Assembly (NCBI GenBank): GCA_026988525.1
Contig: JALSLC010000031.1
Coordinates: forward strand, 1 to 35,161
DNA from: Archaeoglobaceae archaeon
GTDB taxonomy: Archaea; Halobacteriota; Archaeoglobi; Archaeoglobales; Archaeoglobaceae
Direction of reading: 5' to 3'
Length of the DNA: 35,161 nt
In this document: piece by piece, positions 9,259-34,583 of the stretch
Position numbering within the stretch: position 1 is the stretch's first letter
Layout: each line of letters starts with the position of its first letter
Notes under the pieces: model-generated
What the model was told of the DNA's origin: nothing
The model's input: the letters and a program-made list of their open reading frames with translations, nothing else
The model's database searches: none
Program-made: the position numbers and the translations under genes

Positions 9259-9276
9259 TCACAATAATGATTGTGA
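9259..9276 (+). promoter_or_regulatory. Inverted repeat in the cydA leader touching the ribosome binding site
   Basis: TCACAAT-AATG-ATTGTGA is a perfect 7-bp inverted repeat with a 4-nt spacer. Its last two bases are the first two of the Shine-Dalgarno GAGGTG (9275-9280). It could be an operator or an RNA hairpin that limits ribosome access. Confidence 0.4.
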
Positions 9277-9285
9277 GGTGGTGTG

Positions 9286-10791
9286 ATGAATTGGGTAAGC
9301 TATCCTGCATTTGCAGATAGATTGCTATCAATGATTGGAATAGAAGTGCACTGGATTATACTGCAATACATATTAGGTTTACCACTGATGGCTGTGATTG
9401 CAGAGATAGTATGGCTGAAAACAAAGGACGAAAAATGGCTTAAAATATCTAAAACAATAGCCAAGGGATTTATAATGGTTTTTGCAGTTGGAGCTGCAAT
9501 GGGTACTGCTGCAGAGTTTGGTCTTGTCCTATTATGGCCAAATCTCACTGAAATAGCGGGAAAATACATTTATTTCCCGTTGTATGCTGAGATTTTTGCA
9601 TTCATGATGGAAGTTGTATTTATATACATGTATTATTACGGTTGGGGGAGGTTGCCTGAAAAAGTACATGTTCTTGTTGGAACTTTGGCTTTGATTGGGG
9701 CTTGGTTTTCAGCTACAATGATAGTGAGTGTTAATTGCTACATGCAAGCTCCAACTGGAATTTTGCTTGGGAGTTATGCCAAAAGTTTTCCAAAGCTAAC
9801 GCTTTATGTTCCAAACAGTATAGTTTCAGCTTTGAATGTCACAGCATTGCAACTTGCAGGAATGGACGTTCTTGGTAAGACTGGAAACAGTGTAATTGTT
9901 GCTATGCCAAGTAAAATTGTAAAGGTAATTGTGGCTGATGCAATTTCAGGTAAGCCTCTATCAAAAAGCATTCTATGGAGTGTTTTAACATCATCTGCAA
10001 AAACTAAGCTTGCAAACGTTTCGACAATGGCAATTCTCGATGCCATAATGCTGAATACAGTCAAGCATATAGGTGTTTATACAATAACTTTCAAATCCCC
10101 AGTATTTGTTCCATCAGTTCTTCATGCTGTTGGTTCAGGTATTGTTGTATCAGCTTTCACTGTAATGGCGTTTTTCGGCTACTCAGCATACAAAAGAAAA
10201 TCCGAACATGCAAAACTTGGGTATAAGTACGGTGTGCTATTCTCATTAGTCTCCATAATCTATCAAGGTTTTGTTAGTGGACATGAAATGGGTGTAGCTG
10301 TAGCTGAGTGGAATAGAGAAAAATTTGCTGCAATACTTTATGGCTCTCCACCTTTTGTTGAAAAGATAGAGTACACTCTTGCTGGTGTAAAGAACTACAT
10401 CTCCTACAATCAGATACCTCTCTGGCTTAGACCACCAACTATAATACACTGGCTTTACTACACTAAGATAACACTCGCAGTTCTGCTTGGGTTAAGTACT
10501 TTAATTCTTGCCTACTTCTTGTTCATTAAAAAGAGGTATGTGTATTCAAAGTACTTCCTGATATTGCCCTTAATAGCCCAATTAGTTAGTTTTCTCGGAT
10601 GGGCGGTGAGAGAAATAGGAAGAAAACCTTGGACAATATATGGAATAATGGATGTAAAAACTGCACACACAATAAATCCACCGCCACTTTGGGTGGACTT
10701 CTTAGTAGAAGCTTACTTTATAGGATTGCTAATTGTTCTTTGTTATGCTGTCTATAGATTTCTCTGGAAGGCAGGGGAGGTGAAAGCATGA
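9286..10791 (+). CDS. cydA: Cytochrome bd-type oxidase subunit I (CydA)
   Basis: This 501-residue multi-spanning membrane protein carries CydA landmarks: His22 in IEVHWIILQ (high-spin haem ligand position), MGTAAEFG (72-79), the proton-path glutamates Glu102 and Glu109 followed by YYYGWGRL, MQAPTG (153-158), His280 in SVLHAVGSG (haem b558 ligand position), a Q-loop-like AEWNREKFAAILYG (340-353) and GRKPW (445-449). By hand alignment, the position of the second b558 ligand (Met in E. coli) is not obviously Met here. ATG 9286 is preferred over GTG 9283 because of the Shine-Dalgarno GAGGTG at 9275-9280. It overlaps the next gene by 4 nt. Expected function is quinol:oxygen oxidoreduction in the membrane. 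Confidence 0.9.
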   Translation: MNWVSYPAFADRLLSMIGIEVHWIILQYILGLPLMAVIAEIVWLKTKDEKWLKISKTIAKGFIMVFAVGAAMGTAAEFGLVLLWPNLTEIAGKYIYFPLYAEIFAFMMEVVFIYMYYYGWGRLPEKVHVLVGTLALIGAWFSATMIVSVNCYMQAPTGILLGSYAKSFPKLTLYVPNSIVSALNVTALQLAGMDVLGKTGNSVIVAMPSKIVKVIVADAISGKPLSKSILWSVLTSSAKTKLANVSTMAILDAIMLNTVKHIGVYTITFKSPVFVPSVLHAVGSGIVVSAFTVMAFFGYSAYKRKSEHAKLGYKYGVLFSLVSIIYQGFVSGHEMGVAVAEWNREKFAAILYGSPPFVEKIEYTLAGVKNYISYNQIPLWLRPPTIIHWLYYTKITLAVLLGLSTLILAYFLFIKKRYVYSKYFLILPLIAQLVSFLGWAVREIGRKPWTIYGIMDVKTAHTINPPPLWVDFLVEAYFIGLLIVLCYAVYRFLWKAGEVKA

Positions 10792-11876
10792 TAATAGAAT
10801 TCTTAGCTTTAACTTTTGGACTACATATTTTGTTGGTAAACTTAGCAATAGGATTATCTACTGTAATCCCTCTAATGAAGAGAGCTGGAGAAAAAAGTGG
10901 GAACGATGAACTAATTCTAACTTCAAGAAAACTTATGAAGTTCTATGCTGCAACCTATGGTTTGGGTGGTGTTCTCGGTACTGCTTTCACGGTATTTTTA
11001 CTTAGCTTTTATCCGGGATTTATTGGTTTGGCAGGAAACATAGCCTTTGTACCATTTGCAATATCTATACTGCTTATTTGCTTGCACTTCATATCAATTG
11101 TTGTTTACTGGTATGGATGGGATAGATTATCCAAGAATACCCATTTCTTAGTTGGATTGTGCATGATGACTTCTGCCATACTAATTCCACTTGGATTCAG
11201 AGCAATATTTGGATTCTTAAACGCACCAATTGGTTTAGAATTACAACCCAAGTTACATCTAAATACAATCCAAGCTTTAATGAATCCGACTTTCTTAGTA
11301 TTGTATCCAAAGAGTATTTTTGCGTCATATACTCTAACATTTTTCATCCTATCAGCGTTTCTTTCCAAAAACAAAGAGTTATCTATTAAATTTGCAAAGT
11401 ATGGTCTTGTAACTCTATTAATTACAGTATTACTTGGTGTAGCATATGCTGAGACTTTGAGAGTTATATCTCCATACAAATTTGCAAATGCACTCGGATT
11501 TATCTTTAGTATGCATGCTGAGTATAACATTAGCTGGCTATTCATCTTTAAGATAATCTTTGTTGTAATTCAGTTCATAGCAGCCATTCTCTATCTAAGG
11601 TCAAGAAAAAGCTTAGCTGCAAAAGTTGCAGGTGTTTCTGCAATGATTTCTGTTGTATCTGGTGAATTACTTAATGCACTTAGCCAATATCCAATGCTCG
11701 TAGCAAACGTTTCTGGATTACCGTCTAATGTAGTAAAGCAACTTGAAAACATTCTCAATATGGCAAAACCAAACCCGCTAACTACTATGAACAGTTTGTA
11801 CGCGATAACCTTGGCTTTCCTAATACCCTTGCTTATTTGCTTTGCCCTTTTAATGTATATGGTCTCAAAAGATTGA
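10788..11876 (+). CDS. Second CydA-like oxidase subunit (CydA' type)
   Basis: The 362-residue membrane protein is not a classical CydB. It repeats the CydA plan: His13 in FGLHILLVN, LGTAFTVF, YWYGWDRLSKNTH (about residues 107-119) and a NAPIG segment like the QNPVG motif. Key residues of CydA are replaced: the two proton-path Glu positions read Ser and His, the b558 His region reads KSIFASYTLT, and GRQPW is absent. This matches the CydA' partner of archaeal CydAA' oxidases, where the second subunit is a degenerate CydA copy. It starts 4 nt inside cydA (ATGA overlap), so it is translationally coupled. Confidence 0.82.
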   Translation: MIIEFLALTFGLHILLVNLAIGLSTVIPLMKRAGEKSGNDELILTSRKLMKFYAATYGLGGVLGTAFTVFLLSFYPGFIGLAGNIAFVPFAISILLICLHFISIVVYWYGWDRLSKNTHFLVGLCMMTSAILIPLGFRAIFGFLNAPIGLELQPKLHLNTIQALMNPTFLVLYPKSIFASYTLTFFILSAFLSKNKELSIKFAKYGLVTLLITVLLGVAYAETLRVISPYKFANALGFIFSMHAEYNISWLFIFKIIFVVIQFIAAILYLRSRKSLAAKVAGVSAMISVVSGELLNALSQYPMLVANVSGLPSNVVKQLENILNMAKPNPLTTMNSLYAITLAFLIPLLICFALLMYMVSKD

Positions 11877-12010: not shown

Positions 12011-12044
12011 TTCATCGAACAAGTGTTACTAAAGGGTGAGTACT

Positions 12045-13235
12045 ATGTCAAAAATTGGGAAAATACTATGTTTAATTGTAATTATTGCTACCATTCTCAT
12101 ACCATTAGCTCAAGGAGAAGATGTAATGTACAGTATAGGGTACAAAGCCGCAAAATTGGCAATTGAGAATCTCTCTATTAAAAAAGGTAGTGAAAACCTT
12201 CTTGTCATAACTGATGCGGGACATGTGTTGCTTGATGGAAAAAATACTGCAAGAGCTTATGATGGAGTGATGGATGGCAGTGGTGCTAGTTATGGTAAAG
12301 GTAATTTAATACAAGTTAATAGACCTATAAACTCGAAGTTATGGTTTATGTTTTACAATAAAAAAACTAAGGAAGGATTATACTTAGAAGTAAGAAATGG
12401 TATTGCTAAGAGAGATATTCAAAATTCCACTCCAAGTGAAATGTTTTCAAAAGCTATTAAACTTAAAATAGATCCAAATGAACTAATAAATGAGAGTGAA
12501 GCTAAAAACTGGAACGTTCACTTCACAAACAAAACTTTAGATGGAAACGAATTTAGCATAATTACAATTGTTACAATCTGGAGCGAATTTCCAAATGATA
12601 CCAAATACTTATTGAATGCTATTGAATTACACAATCATGTCTGTCCGGGATTAATTTCAGGATACTACATAGCCAAATACTTAGAAGTACATTATCCACT
12701 AAGCAATAAAACATTGATAGTTTGGGCAATACCACCTTGGTGTAAGGATGATGTTTTTCAGGAGTTGTTTGATGCTACGGTTGGCAAAAGAAGAATGGCT
12801 GTTATGTATCTTCAACAAAAGGATAAACTTTATCCAAAATATAAAGATTTAGCTGGAATATACGTTGAAGTAAGTAAAAATGGTTATGCAAAGGCTATTG
12901 TGATTGGCTTCAATTGGAGTAAACTGTTTAAAGATTGCAATATAAGTAGTGAGTATTTCAAAGACTTCAAATCTTACAAATGGTGGTGGGCAAGACTTAA
13001 AGCAGACGTTGTAATGTTAAAACACAATCCTGAGAGATACGTTGAAACACTTAAAATAGTAGATCTTGGAAATCAGCATAGTATTAAGAGTATGAATGCC
13101 AACTGGGTTAGTGTGGGAGAAAATCCACTTGTAAAGTTGGGGTTAATGCCCAAAGAAGAGAAAAAGTCACCTATATCCCTTTTACCTGCAATTTTAGGAT
13201 TAGTGATTGCTTTAGCTATTCGCAGAATTATTTAA
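12045..13235 (+). CDS. Exported, membrane-anchored FmdE-domain protein
   Basis: The 396-residue protein starts with a signal peptide (basic start, hydrophobic core ILCLIVIIATILIPL, then AQG/ED as a possible cleavage point). It ends with one hydrophobic helix (SLLPAILGLVIALAI) followed by RR, a likely C-terminal anchor. The centre contains an FmdE-like motif, LHNHVCPGLISGYYIAKYLE (near residues 196-215), and a later Cys in PPWCKDDVFQ, both typical of the FmdE family associated with formylmethanofuran dehydrogenase and metal or pterin chemistry. Location outside the membrane is inferred from the signal and anchor. It follows the oxidase operon but has its own promoter. I start at ATG 12045 because GTG 12036 lies within the ribosome binding site. 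Confidence 0.75.
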   Translation: MSKIGKILCLIVIIATILIPLAQGEDVMYSIGYKAAKLAIENLSIKKGSENLLVITDAGHVLLDGKNTARAYDGVMDGSGASYGKGNLIQVNRPINSKLWFMFYNKKTKEGLYLEVRNGIAKRDIQNSTPSEMFSKAIKLKIDPNELINESEAKNWNVHFTNKTLDGNEFSIITIVTIWSEFPNDTKYLLNAIELHNHVCPGLISGYYIAKYLEVHYPLSNKTLIVWAIPPWCKDDVFQELFDATVGKRRMAVMYLQQKDKLYPKYKDLAGIYVEVSKNGYAKAIVIGFNWSKLFKDCNISSEYFKDFKSYKWWWARLKADVVMLKHNPERYVETLKIVDLGNQHSIKSMNANWVSVGENPLVKLGLMPKEEKKSPISLLPAILGLVIALAIRRII

Positions 13236-13317: not shown

Positions 13318-13983
13318 ATGAATATGGGAGTACAGGAGAGTATACTTCCCGGTGTTAGCTTAAAAAAAGGATCCAATATCATGATATATGGCCCCACTTT
13401 TGCTGGAAAAGCAATGTTTACAAGGACAATGTTCAAAAAATTTGTAAAAGCCGGTTATTGCGGAATATATGTTTTAACGAGAGAATCAGCAGAACAATTT
13501 ATAGATTGGTTTGGTGAGGAATACGATAGTAATACTGTGAAGATTATAGATTGTGTAACCAAATCTATGACTGGAGATGCAAAGGACACTGAAGCTATAA
13601 AAAGAGAAACTGTAATGAATTTAACTGGAATTTCAGCTAAAATAAATAAATTTCTTGAAGAATTTTGGAGAAAAGGTAACAGAAATATAATTCTGGTTTT
13701 TGATTCACTATCTACTTTGTTAATGTATTTGAACTTGCAAACAGTTTTCAGGTTCTTGCACATTCTTACCGGTAGAGTTAAGATGACGGGAGCTATAGCA
13801 TTCTACATTGTTGAAGAAGGTATGCATGATGAAAAAACGATAGTTACTTTAAAACAATTATTTAACGGAATGATAGAATTTAAAGAGGAAAATGGAAAAA
13901 AATTTGTAAGATTTGTTAGTCCATTTACTAAAACGGATTGGCTTGAAATTCACGTTGATGAAGGGGGAGTGATAATAACATGA
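13318..13983 (+). CDS. KaiC/RecA-superfamily ATPase-like protein with altered P-loop
   Basis: The 221-residue protein has the KaiC/GvpD-like RecA fold: GSNIMIYGPTFAGKAMF at residues 18-34 as the Walker A region, a strand-helix pattern with YVLTRESAEQFIDWF, and Walker B NIILVFDS with Asp129. The P-loop reads GPTFAGKA: the Ser/Thr that normally follows the Lys and binds magnesium is Ala32. Single-domain KaiC-like proteins are common hubs of archaeal signalling. It begins a four-gene operon and overlaps the next gene by 4 nt. ATG 13324 is an alternative start. ATP may still bind, but hydrolysis is doubtful. Confidence 0.72.
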   Translation: MNMGVQESILPGVSLKKGSNIMIYGPTFAGKAMFTRTMFKKFVKAGYCGIYVLTRESAEQFIDWFGEEYDSNTVKIIDCVTKSMTGDAKDTEAIKRETVMNLTGISAKINKFLEEFWRKGNRNIILVFDSLSTLLMYLNLQTVFRFLHILTGRVKMTGAIAFYIVEEGMHDEKTIVTLKQLFNGMIEFKEENGKKFVRFVSPFTKTDWLEIHVDEGGVIIT

Positions 13984-15161
13984 AAGTTGTTACCGGCATA
14001 CCTGTTTTAGATGATTTAATCGATGAGATACCCAATGGTAAAACACTTACTTATTGGATAAATCCGGAAGTAGAGGGTGATGTTTTTGCCATGCAAACAA
14101 TATATACGAACGTTGAAGAAGGTTTGAAGTGTGCTTATACAACAATAACAATTTCTCCTGAATCTATATTAGCTGAGTTTGAAGAATTTGGTTGGAATGT
14201 AAAAGATTTTGAAAACTTTGAAATTGTAGATTTGTATTCAGAGTACGTTGGCTACCCATCTAAGTATAAGTATAGTGCAAACCCTTTAAAAATTGATGAA
14301 GTATGTGGTCTGTTGAAAAATGTTTTAGAAGAATTTGATGTTATATATATACCTATATCCTCTATAATAGACGTTTGTGGTGATGAGTCAATTAGTTGTA
14401 TTGAATCGATATTTAAACTTGTAAAGGAGAAAGGGAAAGTTCTAATTACTTCTTTTGTATCTTGGCCGTATCCTGAAAAAATTAAGAAAATCGTGGGAGA
14501 TTTATCAAATGCAATAGTTAAAATAGGCGGAATTCATCACAGAGTTATCCTTGGCTACTACTATGGACTTGTAAAAGTCGATTGGAAAAACGTTAAAAGT
14601 AAATCAATTTTATTTAAACTTGTTAGGCCGGGTGGGGTTAGAGCTTACATACCTAAAATACTTGTTACCGGTCCCTACAATGCTGGCAAGTCAACTTTTG
14701 TCCATGCAGTATCCAATGTAGCTTTATCTGTTGATAGACTTGGGACCACTGTAGCTTTGGATCACGGCCATTTAGAATACAAGGGTTTCTCCATAGATCT
14801 GTTTGGAACTCCTGGGCAGGAGAGATTTGACCCAATTCTAAGGATGCTTGGTAAAGATGCTCTTGGAGTAATTCTCGTAGTAGATTCCACTAAACCCGAA
14901 ACTTTTCCGAGGGCTAAGCAAATGTTAGAATCGGTAACGCACTTTGGGTTGCCATACGTTGTTGCAGCCAACAAACAAGATTTAAGTAACGCTCTATCGC
15001 CTGAAGAAATAAGAAAGAAGATGTACCTCCCAGAAGATGTACCTATAATTCCAATTTCAGCTTCAAAAGGTGAGGGGATCTTTAAAGTAATTGATGCTCT
15101 GCTCGATATCCTTGTAGGTTCTTGGAAGGAGGGAGAAAATGAGTTTGAGATCTCAACTTGA
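13980..15161 (+). CDS. RecA-like domain fused to a Ras-like small GTPase
   Basis: Residues 1-200 resemble a KaiC-type RecA domain (VVTGIPVLDDLIDEIPNGKTL at the start) but the Walker A site is lost, reading INPEVEGDVF at 27-36. Residues about 224-381 form a complete small GTPase of the COG2229/Arf-like type: P-loop GPYNAGKST (231-239), switch I threonines in LGTTVALD, switch II FGTPGQERF with catalytic-position Gln280, NKQD (331-334) and SAS (360-362). All guanine-specificity motifs are intact. The gene overlaps the RecA-like gene by 4 nt and the Roadblock gene by 23 nt, implying coupled synthesis. It is likely a GTP switch joined to a KaiC-derived docking domain; the effector is unknown. Confidence 0.82.
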   Translation: MKVVTGIPVLDDLIDEIPNGKTLTYWINPEVEGDVFAMQTIYTNVEEGLKCAYTTITISPESILAEFEEFGWNVKDFENFEIVDLYSEYVGYPSKYKYSANPLKIDEVCGLLKNVLEEFDVIYIPISSIIDVCGDESISCIESIFKLVKEKGKVLITSFVSWPYPEKIKKIVGDLSNAIVKIGGIHHRVILGYYYGLVKVDWKNVKSKSILFKLVRPGGVRAYIPKILVTGPYNAGKSTFVHAVSNVALSVDRLGTTVALDHGHLEYKGFSIDLFGTPGQERFDPILRMLGKDALGVILVVDSTKPETFPRAKQMLESVTHFGLPYVVAANKQDLSNALSPEEIRKKMYLPEDVPIIPISASKGEGIFKVIDALLDILVGSWKEGENEFEIST

Positions 15162-15504
15162 AGATATTTTAAAAGATCTTAAATCAACGGGAGATATAGA
15201 AGCATCTGCCATAGTGTCGAGAGATGGATTGCTTATAGCAGCGGATATATCAGCGAATGTTAATGCTGAAGCTTTTGCAGCTATGAGTGCTACAATGCTT
15301 GGAGCAGCAGAAACTGCAATGACTGAACTTGGAAAAGGAATTCCAGATAGGGTTGTTGTTGAAAGTTCAAACGGAAAGATAGTAGCAACCGGAGCTGGAG
15401 AAAAAGCTTTGTTAGTTGTTATGACTTCACCAAAAGCAAATCTCGGTTTAATACTACTTCAAATTGGTAAGGCAAGTAGAAGAGTTGAAGAGTTACTGGG
15501 GTGA
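15139..15504 (+). CDS. Roadblock/LC7-domain protein
   Basis: The 121-residue protein is a single Roadblock/LC7 domain: initial helix, IEASAIVSRDGLLIAADI (residues 19-36), a helix with EAFAAMSATMLGAAETAM, then strands RVVVESSNGKIVATGAG and KALLVVMTS, and a closing helix. Roadblock proteins bind small GTPases; bacterial MglB activates GTP hydrolysis by MglA, and eukaryotic relatives scaffold Rag GTPases. Here the gene lies immediately downstream of, and overlaps, a Ras-like GTPase gene, making that GTPase the natural partner. A Shine-Dalgarno GGAGGG (15127-15132) precedes the ATG. Confidence 0.88.
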   Translation: MSLRSQLEDILKDLKSTGDIEASAIVSRDGLLIAADISANVNAEAFAAMSATMLGAAETAMTELGKGIPDRVVVESSNGKIVATGAGEKALLVVMTSPKANLGLILLQIGKASRRVEELLG

Positions 15505-15508
15505 AATC

Positions 15509-16084
15509 ATGTTCGAAATTTTAGTTAATGAAGATTTAACAGATATGAGTGAAGGAGAGCTCGATAAAATCTTTGTTGCTCATGAGGAAGGTATAAAAAG
15601 ATTTCTTGGCAGAATACCTCTTGGATGTATATATGCAACTTTTCTTGCTGGTTTGTATGTAGAGATGGAAAAAATTGTTGGTAGAGCTGCAAAAGGATTG
15701 ATAGTGAATGCTTCAAAAAATAGGGGTAAAGTTGCTGGAATGGCTATAAGAAAAAGATACGAGAAAAAATATGGAAAGATGGATGAAGATAGAGTGAAAA
15801 TGGTAGCGAGAAACATGTTAACTGTGTGGGGTAAGTGCTTTGGATGGGGAAAAATGAACTTTAAAATAAATGATAGCGAGTTTATACTTGAGGTGGAGGA
15901 CTCACTCGAATCAACGGGTTTTATAAAGTTAAAGGTAAAAAGAGAGCAGCCTGCTTGCTGGATGTTACTTGGATACACTTGGGGGTTGCTTGAAGGTTTG
16001 TTTAATTCAAAGTTCGTAGGGGATGAAGTAGAGTGTAGAGCATCCGGAGGTAGCATTTGTAGATTCGTTTTTAGAACTGAATAA
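15509..16084 (+). CDS. V4R-domain protein
   Basis: The 191-residue protein has an N-terminal helical part and a C-terminal V4R (4-vinyl reductase-like) domain, seen in CWMLLGYTWGLLEGLF and the final CRASGGSICRFVF. The two Cys flanking a GG pair are a feature of V4R domains in archaeal regulators and of BchJ, and suggest a small-ligand or metal sensor. I use ATG 15509, which has the ribosome binding site GGGGTGA at 15498-15504, rather than an earlier in-frame start that would run into the Roadblock gene. It is the fourth gene of the GTPase operon and the obvious candidate for its input domain; the ligand is unknown. Confidence 0.8.
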   Translation: MFEILVNEDLTDMSEGELDKIFVAHEEGIKRFLGRIPLGCIYATFLAGLYVEMEKIVGRAAKGLIVNASKNRGKVAGMAIRKRYEKKYGKMDEDRVKMVARNMLTVWGKCFGWGKMNFKINDSEFILEVEDSLESTGFIKLKVKREQPACWMLLGYTWGLLEGLFNSKFVGDEVECRASGGSICRFVFRTE

Positions 16085-16119: not shown

Positions 16120-16821
16120 ATGAGATTGCCTTTGTACATTGAGTTTGAAGGAAAAAACGTTTTAGTGTTGGGTGGAGGAGGAGTGGGCACTTCAAGAGCG
16201 AAAAAATTTCTTGATGCTGGGGCAAATGTTAGAGTTTTAAGTCTCGACTTTTGTGATGAATTACTGGAACTTGAGAAAAGAGGAAAAGTCGAACTTATAA
16301 AGGGAAACGCATTTGACGATAAACTGTTAGAAGAGCACATTTCTTGGGCTAACTTAGTTACAGTAGCTATTCCTACAACAGATATGAACGAAAAAATAAT
16401 TGAAATAGCAAAGAAATATAGAACCCTTGTAAATTTGGCAAACGATGCAGAAAAGACAGAAGTTGTTGTTCCATTTGAAGGAGAAGTTGATGGCATTAGA
16501 TTTGCAGTAACAACAGAAGGTAAGAGCGGTGTTGTTGCTAGAAAAGTTAGAGATTCGATATATAAGATGCTTGAGGAAGATGAGGAGATCATATACTTTT
16601 TAAAGGCAATGTACTACTTGAAAAAGTATATGAAAGCTAGAAATATACCAGTTCAGTTGAGGATGAAGCTTTACTTCGTTATTGCATCAAATCCAGATTT
16701 TGTTTCTCTTGTTAAAAAGGAAGATGTGGAAGGAGCTAAAAGATTGGTTGAAAAACTCGTTGATGAGTATGTTTCTGGAAAGAGGGAGATAGATGATGCA
16801 GAAGTCAAGATCAATTTTTGA
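16120..16821 (+). CDS. Precorrin-2 dehydrogenase / sirohydrochlorin ferrochelatase-type protein
   Basis: SirC/Met8-type enzymes oxidise precorrin-2 to sirohydrochlorin with NAD; some also insert iron. The 233-residue protein opens with LPLYIEFEGKNVLVLGGGGVG, whose Rossmann loop GGGGVGTSRAKKFLDAGA (residues 18-35, partial quote) binds NAD. TTEGKSGVVARKVR near residue 127 is the family's second conserved segment (usually TxGxSPxLA), here with VVA. A C-terminal helical dimer domain follows. It overlaps the siroheme decarboxylase gene by 29 nt, linking both to siroheme-dependent haem synthesis. It starts 35 nt after the V4R gene. Confidence 0.88.
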   Translation: MRLPLYIEFEGKNVLVLGGGGVGTSRAKKFLDAGANVRVLSLDFCDELLELEKRGKVELIKGNAFDDKLLEEHISWANLVTVAIPTTDMNEKIIEIAKKYRTLVNLANDAEKTEVVVPFEGEVDGIRFAVTTEGKSGVVARKVRDSIYKMLEEDEEIIYFLKAMYYLKKYMKARNIPVQLRMKLYFVIASNPDFVSLVKKEDVEGAKRLVEKLVDEYVSGKREIDDAEVKINF

Positions 16822-17746
16822 TAAGGATACAACAAAACTCTTAATGGGTATTCAGTATAACCTACCTTTAACAACTACACCTCTCGTTGATTTAGCTGAA
16901 GAACTAAGATTAGATAAGGAATTTGTATTTAGGAAAATAAAAGAATTTTATAAAAATAAAACTTTGAAAAGATACGGTGCAAATCTAAATTATAGAGCAT
17001 TTTCAAATCAGCAAAGAGCAGCATTAGTGGCAGCTAAGGTTGAAACAGAGAGAATAGAAGAAGTAGCTAAAATCATAAATTCCTACAAACCAAAGCACAA
17101 TTACTGGAGAGACAACTACTATAACATCTGGTTCACTTTAAAGGCTGAAGATTATGAATCGGTAAAGTTGTTGGCGGAGGAAGTTTTGAAAAAGTGTAAA
17201 GTAAAAGAATATTTAATCATGCCAACAAAAAGAGTGTATAAAATGGATGTTAAATATGACTTAAATAGAGGAATATCTTGGAGTGAAAAGAAAGAGGAGA
17301 AATTCGATGTTCCAAAAATTGAGGAGCTTGGATTAGACGTCAAATTGTTAAAAAAACTTGAAAAATTGGATGTTGTTGAAAGACCTTTTTCTGGAATGGG
17401 TTATAGCGAGGAAGAAATTGTTGATTTGATTGAAGAATTAATTAAATTGGGAATTGTTAGGGATTTTAGTGGTGTTTTAAAGGAAAGACATATCGGATTT
17501 ATGGAAAATGGTATGCATGTTGTAAAAACAGACAATCCAGAAAAGTTAGCAAAAAATCTTGCAAAGAGAGAGGAAATAACGCACCTTGTTGAGAGAATTG
17601 TTCCAGAAAATTGGCCATATCCAATATACTTCATGGTCCACGCAGTTAGTAGAGACCTAATAGAAAACGTAAAAGAGGAAATAGAAAAAATGAAATATGT
17701 AGAGGAAATAAAAGTTCTTTACAGCTTGAAAGACTTGCTCAGCTAA
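16793..17746 (+). CDS. Siroheme decarboxylase, AhbA-AhbB fusion
   Basis: AhbA/AhbB proteins are Lrp/AsnC-like and decarboxylate siroheme to 12,18-didecarboxysiroheme in the archaeal haem pathway. The 317-residue chain holds two copies of the unit. The first has a winged-helix region followed by KRYGANLNYRAF and NYWRDNYYNIWFTL (residues about 50-120). The second has a winged-helix region with IEELIKLGIVRDFSGVL, then HIGFMENGMHVV and ENWPYPIYFMVHA (residues about 195-290). Single-domain subunits are usual, so this is a natural fusion of the heterodimer. ATG 16793 or 16796 starts it, behind GAGGGAG. It overlaps sirC by 29 nt. Supply of haem for the bd-type oxidase is a plausible use. Confidence 0.85.
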   Translation: MMQKSRSIFDKDTTKLLMGIQYNLPLTTTPLVDLAEELRLDKEFVFRKIKEFYKNKTLKRYGANLNYRAFSNQQRAALVAAKVETERIEEVAKIINSYKPKHNYWRDNYYNIWFTLKAEDYESVKLLAEEVLKKCKVKEYLIMPTKRVYKMDVKYDLNRGISWSEKKEEKFDVPKIEELGLDVKLLKKLEKLDVVERPFSGMGYSEEEIVDLIEELIKLGIVRDFSGVLKERHIGFMENGMHVVKTDNPEKLAKNLAKREEITHLVERIVPENWPYPIYFMVHAVSRDLIENVKEEIEKMKYVEEIKVLYSLKDLLS

Positions 17747-33617: not shown

Positions 33618-34583
33618 GTGTTAAGTGTTAATGAGTTAGCTTACGATATAGTAGAAGAGATGCTGGACTACATGGACGAATATAGAGAAGAGTATAAAAT
33701 AGATTTCTATAGATTAGAGAATAAAGCTTGGGTTATAGACTTTGGAGTTAATGTGAAAGGTAGCATCTCAGCAGGAATTCTATACTCTGAAGTGTGTATG
33801 GCTGGCCTGGGAGAAATAGATGTCAAAACAGATAATTTAGCAGAGTTAGTTCTACCCTTTGTTGAGGTTAGAACTGATAACCCATCTCTTGCGTGCTTAG
33901 CAGCTCAAAAAGCTGGCTGGCAAATAAAAGTTGGAGATTATTTTGCTATGGGCAGTGGGCCAGCAAGAGCCTTAGCATTAAAACCCAAGAAAACTTATGA
34001 GATTTTGGATTACGAAGATGATGCCGAATACGCAATTATAACCCTTGAATCAGATAATTTGCCAAACGAAAAAGTAATAGACTACATAGCAAAAGAGTGT
34101 GATGTTGAAAGTGAAGATGTTTACGCGCTTGTAGCTCCAACTACTTCCCTTGTTGGTTGCATTCAAATATCTGCAAGAATAGTTGAGGTTGCTATGTATA
34201 GATTGCTTCAACTCGGCTTCAATGTTAATAAAGTACTTTCAGGATGTGGTAATGCGCCTATTTCACCCCCTTCAAAGGATAATCTAAAAGCAATGGGAAT
34301 AACAAACGATTGTATTCTCTATTGTGGAAAAGCGTTTTTATACACTGAATTTGATGAATCTGAAATTAGAAAGCTTAATAATTCAAGTTTGGTTTCAAAT
34401 GAATCCAAGGACTACGGTTTACCATTCTACGAAATATTTAAGAGGGCAAACTACAACTTCTATAACATAGATCCATCTCTTTTTGCTCCAGCAAAAGTTA
34501 CTATTTCTTCACCCTGCGGATGTGTTATAAAAGGCAAAATTGATGAAAAAGTTCTTTTAAAGTCCTTAGGGGTGATAAGTTGA
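33618..34583 (+). CDS. mch: Methenyltetrahydromethanopterin cyclohydrolase
   Basis: Mch interconverts formyl- and methenyl-tetrahydromethanopterin in the C1 pathway of methanogens and Archaeoglobi. The 321-residue length is standard. The N-terminal LSVNELAYDIVEEML, the segments GEIDVKTDN and YFAMGSGPARALALKPK, and VALVAPTTSLVGCIQISARIVE-like sequence (here YALVAPTTSLVGCIQIS) identify the family. The start is GTG 33618 with no ribosome binding site, so it is probably leaderless, with a weak GATATAG element about 25 nt upstream. It overlaps the next small gene by 4 nt. Confidence 0.97.
   Translation: MLSVNELAYDIVEEMLDYMDEYREEYKIDFYRLENKAWVIDFGVNVKGSISAGILYSEVCMAGLGEIDVKTDNLAELVLPFVEVRTDNPSLACLAAQKAGWQIKVGDYFAMGSGPARALALKPKKTYEILDYEDDAEYAIITLESDNLPNEKVIDYIAKECDVESEDVYALVAPTTSLVGCIQISARIVEVAMYRLLQLGFNVNKVLSGCGNAPISPPSKDNLKAMGITNDCILYCGKAFLYTEFDESEIRKLNNSSLVSNESKDYGLPFYEIFKRANYNFYNIDPSLFAPAKVTISSPCGCVIKGKIDEKVLLKSLGVIS

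Follow-up and report, generated by a model that had tools for sequence, protein, structure and literature searches.

Analysis of a 35,161-nucleotide stretch of Archaeoglobaceae DNA (here called the window; contig 31 of its genome) revealed an adjacent gene pair for a cytochrome bd-type enzyme consisting of CydA and a degenerate second CydA copy (CydA′), in which lysine takes the place of the methionine that otherwise provides the second ligand of heme b558. On balance, we favor the reading that the pair encodes a CydAA′ oxygen reductase, probably fed by menaquinol, with a heme b558 ligated by histidine and lysine. While the CydAA′ type itself is known, the lysine at position 393 (position numbers are those of E. 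coli CydA unless given as window residues) may be new.

The cydAA′ locus

The host (genome, 1.43 Mb, 99.8% complete) is a heat-loving archaeon of the Archaeoglobaceae and an anaerobe by lineage. A methanopterin cyclohydrolase at positions 33618 to 34583 agrees with the initial annotation, which had placed the gene pair in a methanopterin archaeon. The longest cydA open reading frame (ORF) spans positions 9283 to 10791, with GTG as an alternative start, and an ATG is found at 9286. The latter is the better start, since a Shine-Dalgarno-like sequence precedes it and relatives start there too. The cydA and cydA′ ORFs share an ATGA overlap.

9275..9282, plus strand: Shine-Dalgarno-like GAGGTGGT upstream of the 9286 start codon (direct reading)
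9286..10791, plus strand: CydA, heme-bearing subunit; 501 amino acids from the ATG; PF01654, E value 4.8e-61; residue numbers count the GTG at 9283 as 1
10788..11876, plus strand: CydA′, degenerate second CydA; 362 amino acids; PF01654, E value 2.7e-23

In the Pfam scan, PF01654 was matched with 207 bits by CydA and 82.7 bits by CydA′ (curated cut-off, 26.2), and no other family was found in either protein at an E value of ≤0.01. PF02322 (CydB), which was the only match of E. coli CydB used as a control, was absent among the scanned neighbors of cydAA′ in the window. Misassembly or sequencing error was ruled out as the source of the pair, as it recurs across many assemblies.

The second subunit

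The initial annotation had taken the second subunit for a degenerate CydA rather than a CydB, and profile, tree, and fold all bear this out. A profile of 74 CydA′ sequences matched E. coli CydA with a probability of 92.7 (E value, 4.2e-7), compared to 0.4 (E value, 0.14) for E. coli CydB, the latter searched as a single sequence and not as a profile. In a tree of 47 CydA, 47 CydA′, and 13 canonical CydA sequences, each group formed one side of a branch, with support of 92, 100, and 99, respectively. The AlphaFold model of CydA′, built from 74 rows, has a pLDDT of 94.2 and a pTM of 0.92, and its comparison with solved chains returned ten CydA-type chains first (TM score, 0.76 to 0.83), followed by ten CydB-type chains (0.60 to 0.71). 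The CydA chain was the best match in all ten bd entries (Z score, 33.2 to 37.7). Since profile, tree, and structural matches favor CydA over CydB, we assign the second protein as CydA′ and rule out CydB.

The residue changes previously read from a hand alignment were also recovered. Glu99 and Glu107 are replaced by Ser93 and His100 (window residues), the b558 ligand His186 by Lys175, and the GRQPW signature by SQYPM, while the N-terminal His19 is retained as His13; in addition, Glu445 is replaced by Ala297. For comparison, the first histidine of E. coli CydB does not occur before residue 56.

10824..10826, plus strand: His13 of CydA′ at the His19 position; kept in 111/111 distinct CydA′ rows
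11310..11312, plus strand: Lys175 of CydA′ at the His186 position (alignment); histidine in the A. fulgidus-type CydA′
11550..11552, plus strand: Lys255 of CydA′ at the Met393 position; register less certain, a few columns off in one of three alignments

Glu99 is replaced by serine or alanine in 109 of 112 CydA′ rows. The residues at positions 186 and 393 of CydA′ were sorted for the 75 rows (one of them repeated) whose CydA carries Lys393: 45 have Lys/Lys, as in the window, 14 have His/Lys (A. fulgidus type), and 10 have His/Met (Aigarchaeota, Geothermarchaeota, and Geocrenenecus type), with four other combinations and two sequences cut short. Lys/Lys occurs in just one of 36 rows with a Met393 CydA. 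As one alignment placed position 393 of CydA′ in a different register, its residue pairs are less secure than the CydA ones. At ten loci (L111, L115 to L118, L120, L121, L124, L126, and L135), CydA′ carries the canonical b558 His/Met, and the CydA beside it has His/Lys.

Heme and quinol residues of CydA

The AlphaFold model of CydA (pLDDT, 92.1; pTM, 0.90; 72 rows) has the CydA chains of bd oxidases as its nearest solved structures (Z score, 39.8 to 43.7). The positions of its main features are as follows.

9349..9351, plus strand: O2-site heme ligand His23, equivalent to E. coli His19; histidine in 108/108 rows with letters
9589..9612, plus strand: Glu103 and Glu110, equivalent to E. coli Glu99 and Glu107; 108/108 rows with letters
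9775..10086, plus strand: insert separating helices 4 and 5, residues ~165 to 268 (alignment and AlphaFold)
10123..10125, plus strand: His281, equivalent to E. coli His186, first heme b558 ligand; 110/110 archaeal CydAA′ CydA
10321..10323, plus strand: Lys347, equivalent to E. coli Lys252, quinol site (alignment)
10465..10467, plus strand: Lys395 (AAG), replacing Met393, position of the second b558 ligand; ungapped against Geobacillus thermodenitrificans Met325
10600..10614, plus strand: Trp440 and Glu444, equivalent to E. coli Trp441 and Glu445 (heme b595 ligand) (alignment)
10618..10632, plus strand: GRKPW (446 to 450), variant of GRQPW; Lys448 is position 449 (alignment)

The residues of the O2 site and of heme b595 as well as His186 are kept in all rows with letters (108 to 110 of 110), which argues that the heme sites are under selection. 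GRKPW replaces the GRQPW signature in the window CydA, and glutamine at position 449 was found in only 9 of 112 archaeal rows. The insert between helices 4 and 5 adds about 95 residues, which AlphaFold predicts to form a small alpha/beta domain (pLDDT mostly 93 to 97) with strands at residues 171 to 177, 195 to 199, and 203 to 209 plus helices; by analogy with the Q-loop side, it would sit outside the membrane.

Exchange of Met393 for lysine

The missing b558 methionine of the first subunit, which had already been pointed out, was traced to a single exchange: Lys395 occupies the Met393 position, and all other canonical heme ligands are kept. The phmmer alignment of the window CydA with that of G. 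thermodenitrificans has no gap around Lys395 and Met325, the latter described as a ligand of heme b558 (PMC8324918). Same-clade relatives swap lysine and methionine within one local frame (YYTK and YYGK versus YYGM and YYAM); together with the stable register over several alignments, this rules out a misaligned methionine. Lys393 and GRKPW are present in 15/15 aligned Archaeoglobaceae CydA sequences and are thus no sequencing error. As a substitute ligand, His389 (window residue) is less likely, given that G. thermodenitrificans has a histidine there yet keeps its methionine and that Lys rows of the Aigarchaeota type have no histidine at this site. Six residues before position 393, four rows of the wider clade of the window in which Lys393 has reverted to methionine (L086, L090, L094, and L095) carry aspartate, and the Lys rows compared carry histidine.

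In bd structures, heme b558 is described as ligated by histidine and methionine (PMC8324918, PMC8951039), a pair reported as conserved across the structures available (PMC8951039), and the region of Met393 is reported to be hardly variable in proteobacteria (PMC5322542). No lysine heme ligand of a bd oxidase was found in the largely open-access literature searched (Murali 2021 may mention one); the lysine discussed in one paper found there is that of the quinol site. The nearest precedent is cytochrome bc1, in which an engineered His-Lys heme b was described as low-spin and functional; the exchange of bis-His for His-Lys raised the midpoint potential by 50 to 160 mV, and Met-to-Lys was not among the exchanges measured (PMC4807273). 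These mutants resemble the window enzyme in the proposed axial lysine and the transmembrane heme b but differ in being laboratory changes of bis-His hemes in an unrelated protein. The authors of that study state that they know of no natural lysine ligand of a membrane-protein heme and that such ligands may "still await identification" (PMC4807273); a natural lysine at b558, if it ligates, would be a His-Lys membrane heme of this kind.

From its position, its recurrence, and its coupling with position 449, we infer that Lys395 ligates the b558 iron. It is also conceivable, though we think it rather unlikely, that heme b558 is five-coordinate, bound by His281 alone, with Lys395 filling space or pairing with a propionate or the quinol and the heme being high-spin and open to small ligands. 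Position by itself is no proof of ligation, as Lys395 could point away, and the accompanying change at Lys448 would also fit a charge network. Against this, the axial ligand is replaced in exact register by a residue able to ligate a membrane heme b (PMC4807273), and the lysine is kept in 79 of 121 rows from several phyla.

Frequency of Lys393 and suggested coupling to position 449

The sample comprised 111 CydA sequences adjoining a CydA′ (110 distinct), to which 47 further archaeal CydA sequences were added. Archaeal CydA were counted as lone if their locus held no CydA′ ORF of 300 amino acids, irrespective of CydB. Ten loci repeating Archaeoglobaceae genomes already in the set as well as L107, L109, and L112 (no CydA ORF of 400 amino acids) were dropped before alignment, L193 (a copy of L067) before the large tree, 14 repeats in the round that added the 47 sequences, and L273 before the final count. 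Of 31 matching genomes, 26 yielded pairs, with G071 already represented as L088; the fragments in G087, G115, G116, and G129 and one G125 copy with an internal stop were left out of the pair set.

Lys393 was found in 79 of 121 archaeal CydAA′-type CydA sequences and methionine in the other 42. All 49 other CydA, namely 36 archaeal sequences without CydA′ in the locus and 13 canonical ones, carry Met393. These shares are no estimates of prevalence: sampling favors Lys and GRKPW, because the contigs were scanned with two patterns and one of these was the peptide GRKPWT[IV]Y. Among samples found by PF01654 alone, lysine was present in 11 of 33 loci (including one repeat of L067) and in 5 of 11.

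Residues 393 and 449 were combined as Lys/Lys in 78 rows, Lys/other in one (L093), Met/Lys in one (L094), and Met/other in 90. On a tree built without both columns, each position changed five times, and four of five independent contrasts switched jointly in the same direction with none opposite (sign test, P = 0.125); with fewer than six contrasts, this test is unable to reach 0.05. The alignments thus make a coupling of Lys393 with Lys449 suggestive, not proved. They further indicate that the loss of Met393 is not random: lysine takes its place, recurrently and over many archaea. Such a natural set of Met/Lys exchanges offers a test of how the axial ligand tunes the heme at which electrons enter from quinol.

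For the Lys393 branch as a whole, we tentatively propose a wider reading, less secure than that for the window enzyme: Met and Lys would have been exchanged several times, in step with position 449, to give a natural His/Lys transmembrane b558, and a further heme would be held by CydA′. In some lineages, represented by 10 rows, this additional heme would occupy a second, b558-like His/Met site. The background to the proposed CydA′ heme is the invariant His19 equivalent (111/111) and the loss of the O2-site glutamates.

Phylogeny and distribution in the Archaeoglobaceae

The window CydA clusters with nine relatives (support, 100). This clade lies in a group of 53 rows (support, 99) that otherwise contains Desulfurococcales, Thermofilales, other Thermoproteota, and Heimdallarchaeota. 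Sequences of the A. fulgidus type fall into a separate 44-row group (support, 98) together with Thermoproteales-type and other sequences. By this tree, the Archaeoglobaceae hold two separate CydAA′ lineages, and that of the window is not the one of A. fulgidus; transfer of cydAA′ between phyla is likely. Six Thermoproteota genomes (G112, G113, G114, G117, G118, and G132) have two distinct CydAA′ pairs each, both of the Met type.

Within the family, a cyd match was found in 18 of 55 genomes and none in 37; in the genus of the window, three of six genomes had a match. Fifteen of the 18 have an uninterrupted CydA (one with its CydA′ cut by a contig end), and three have broken or partial copies, observed as a split CydA, several stops, and a remnant among L049 (G013), L055 (G047), and L059 (G061). 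That these three genomes hold broken or partial copies alone and that 37 lack a match would fit a relic in decay that is being lost. As to the window pair, we consider this very improbable, as both ORFs are open, all residues conserved among relatives save Glu257 are kept, and the two ORFs are 86% and 81% identical to those of the sister genome.

Comparison with known CydAA′ and CydAB enzymes

The CydAA′ enzyme of Caldivirga maquilingensis was reportedly purified and active (Murali, Gennis, and Hemp, 2021). We take L189 in genome G103 to be its CydA. It resembles the window pair in having adjacent CydA paralogs with no CydB beside them and in keeping the O2-site ligands and His186, but differs from it by Met393, alanine at position 441, and GRVPF, which places it in another branch. 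Being that of a Met-type relative, its reported activity is no direct evidence for the window enzyme, and one Met-type CydAA′ cannot represent the whole group. To our knowledge, the Lys branch has no characterized member.

We presume that G040/L054 is the CydA locus of A. fulgidus. This CydA comes from the same family and shares Lys393 and GRKPW with the window CydA, but the two are only about 25% identical (28% in a smaller alignment) and fall into different supported parts of the tree; moreover, the A. fulgidus CydA′ has histidine at position 186, where that of the window has lysine. Two adjacent CydA copies (CydA1 and CydA2) have been described for A. fulgidus, so that CydAA′ was already known in the family (PMC3512248). 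E. coli cytochrome bd-I shares the CydA fold and all heme ligands but one with the window CydA and differs in its CydB partner, Met393, Arg391, GRQPW, long Q-loop, and lack of the domain inserted after helix 4 and before helix 5.

Proposed function

In the proposed enzyme, the three hemes would reside in CydA, with CydA′ taking over the structural role of CydB. Menaquinol would most likely donate the electrons. These would enter at heme b558, held by His281 and Lys395 with Lys448 of GRKPW as the coupled change, and continue via Trp440 and the heme ligated by Glu444 to the His23/Glu103 heme, where O2 would be reduced to water. An equivalent route from b558 over the Trp441/Glu445 heme to the His19/Glu99 heme is described for solved bd enzymes (PMC6853902, PMC8324918, PMC8951039).

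The host genome encodes two proteins of PF02621, a family of the menaquinone pathway, and has matches to PF00346 and three to PF01077 (dissimilatory sulfite reductase type), which make menaquinol the likely donor and removal of O2 the likely use. The enzyme would thus probably serve to clear stray O2 in an anaerobic archaeon resembling sulfate reducers. An Archaeoglobus assembly has been called aerotolerant on the ground of its "CydABX" (PMC8579995).

Two residues weaken the case for quinol as the donor: in the clade of the window, the Glu257 position holds leucine in eight of ten rows (Leu352 in the window) and glutamate in the other two, and Arg391 is replaced by tyrosine (Tyr393); the A. 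fulgidus type has Glu257 in five of five. Lys252 and Glu257 are named as quinol-site residues of bd enzymes (PMC6853902). These changes in the quinol/b558 region, the anaerobic lineage of the host, and the quinol peroxidase activity recorded for a canonical bd (PMC4899803) could point to an enzyme that mainly reduces another small acceptor, such as NO or peroxide, or that takes its electrons from a donor other than quinol. We regard this as improbable, given that the O2-site residues are complete, Lys252 is kept, and a menaquinone-pathway family is present in the genome.

Gene neighborhood

In the flanks compared, no neighbor gene is kept beside cydAA′ beyond the genus; conservation is confined to the genus. 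Directly downstream, positions 12036 to 13235 encode a protein that combines an FmdE domain, an apparent signal peptide, and a hydrophobic C-terminal end. A functional link between it and cydAA′ is unsupported, as no relative lies beside cydAA′ in the sister genome. The adjoining cassette at 13318 to 16084 (DUF7504/KaiC-like protein, KaiC-Arf-type GTPase fusion, Roadblock, and V4R) is kept next to cydAA′ in the sister genome (L044) and looks like a signaling module. At 16120 to 17746, a CysG-type precorrin-2 dehydrogenase stands beside a single polypeptide that matches AhbA (residues 14 to 157) and AhbB (190 to 314). By these matches, it is a fused AhbAB, the siroheme decarboxylase of the alternative heme pathway, encoded 4 kb from the heme enzyme. 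Far upstream, positions 610 to 1575 gave a weak match to the RAMP superfamily (22.0 bits; cut-off, 22.1), perhaps a piece of a type III CRISPR system.
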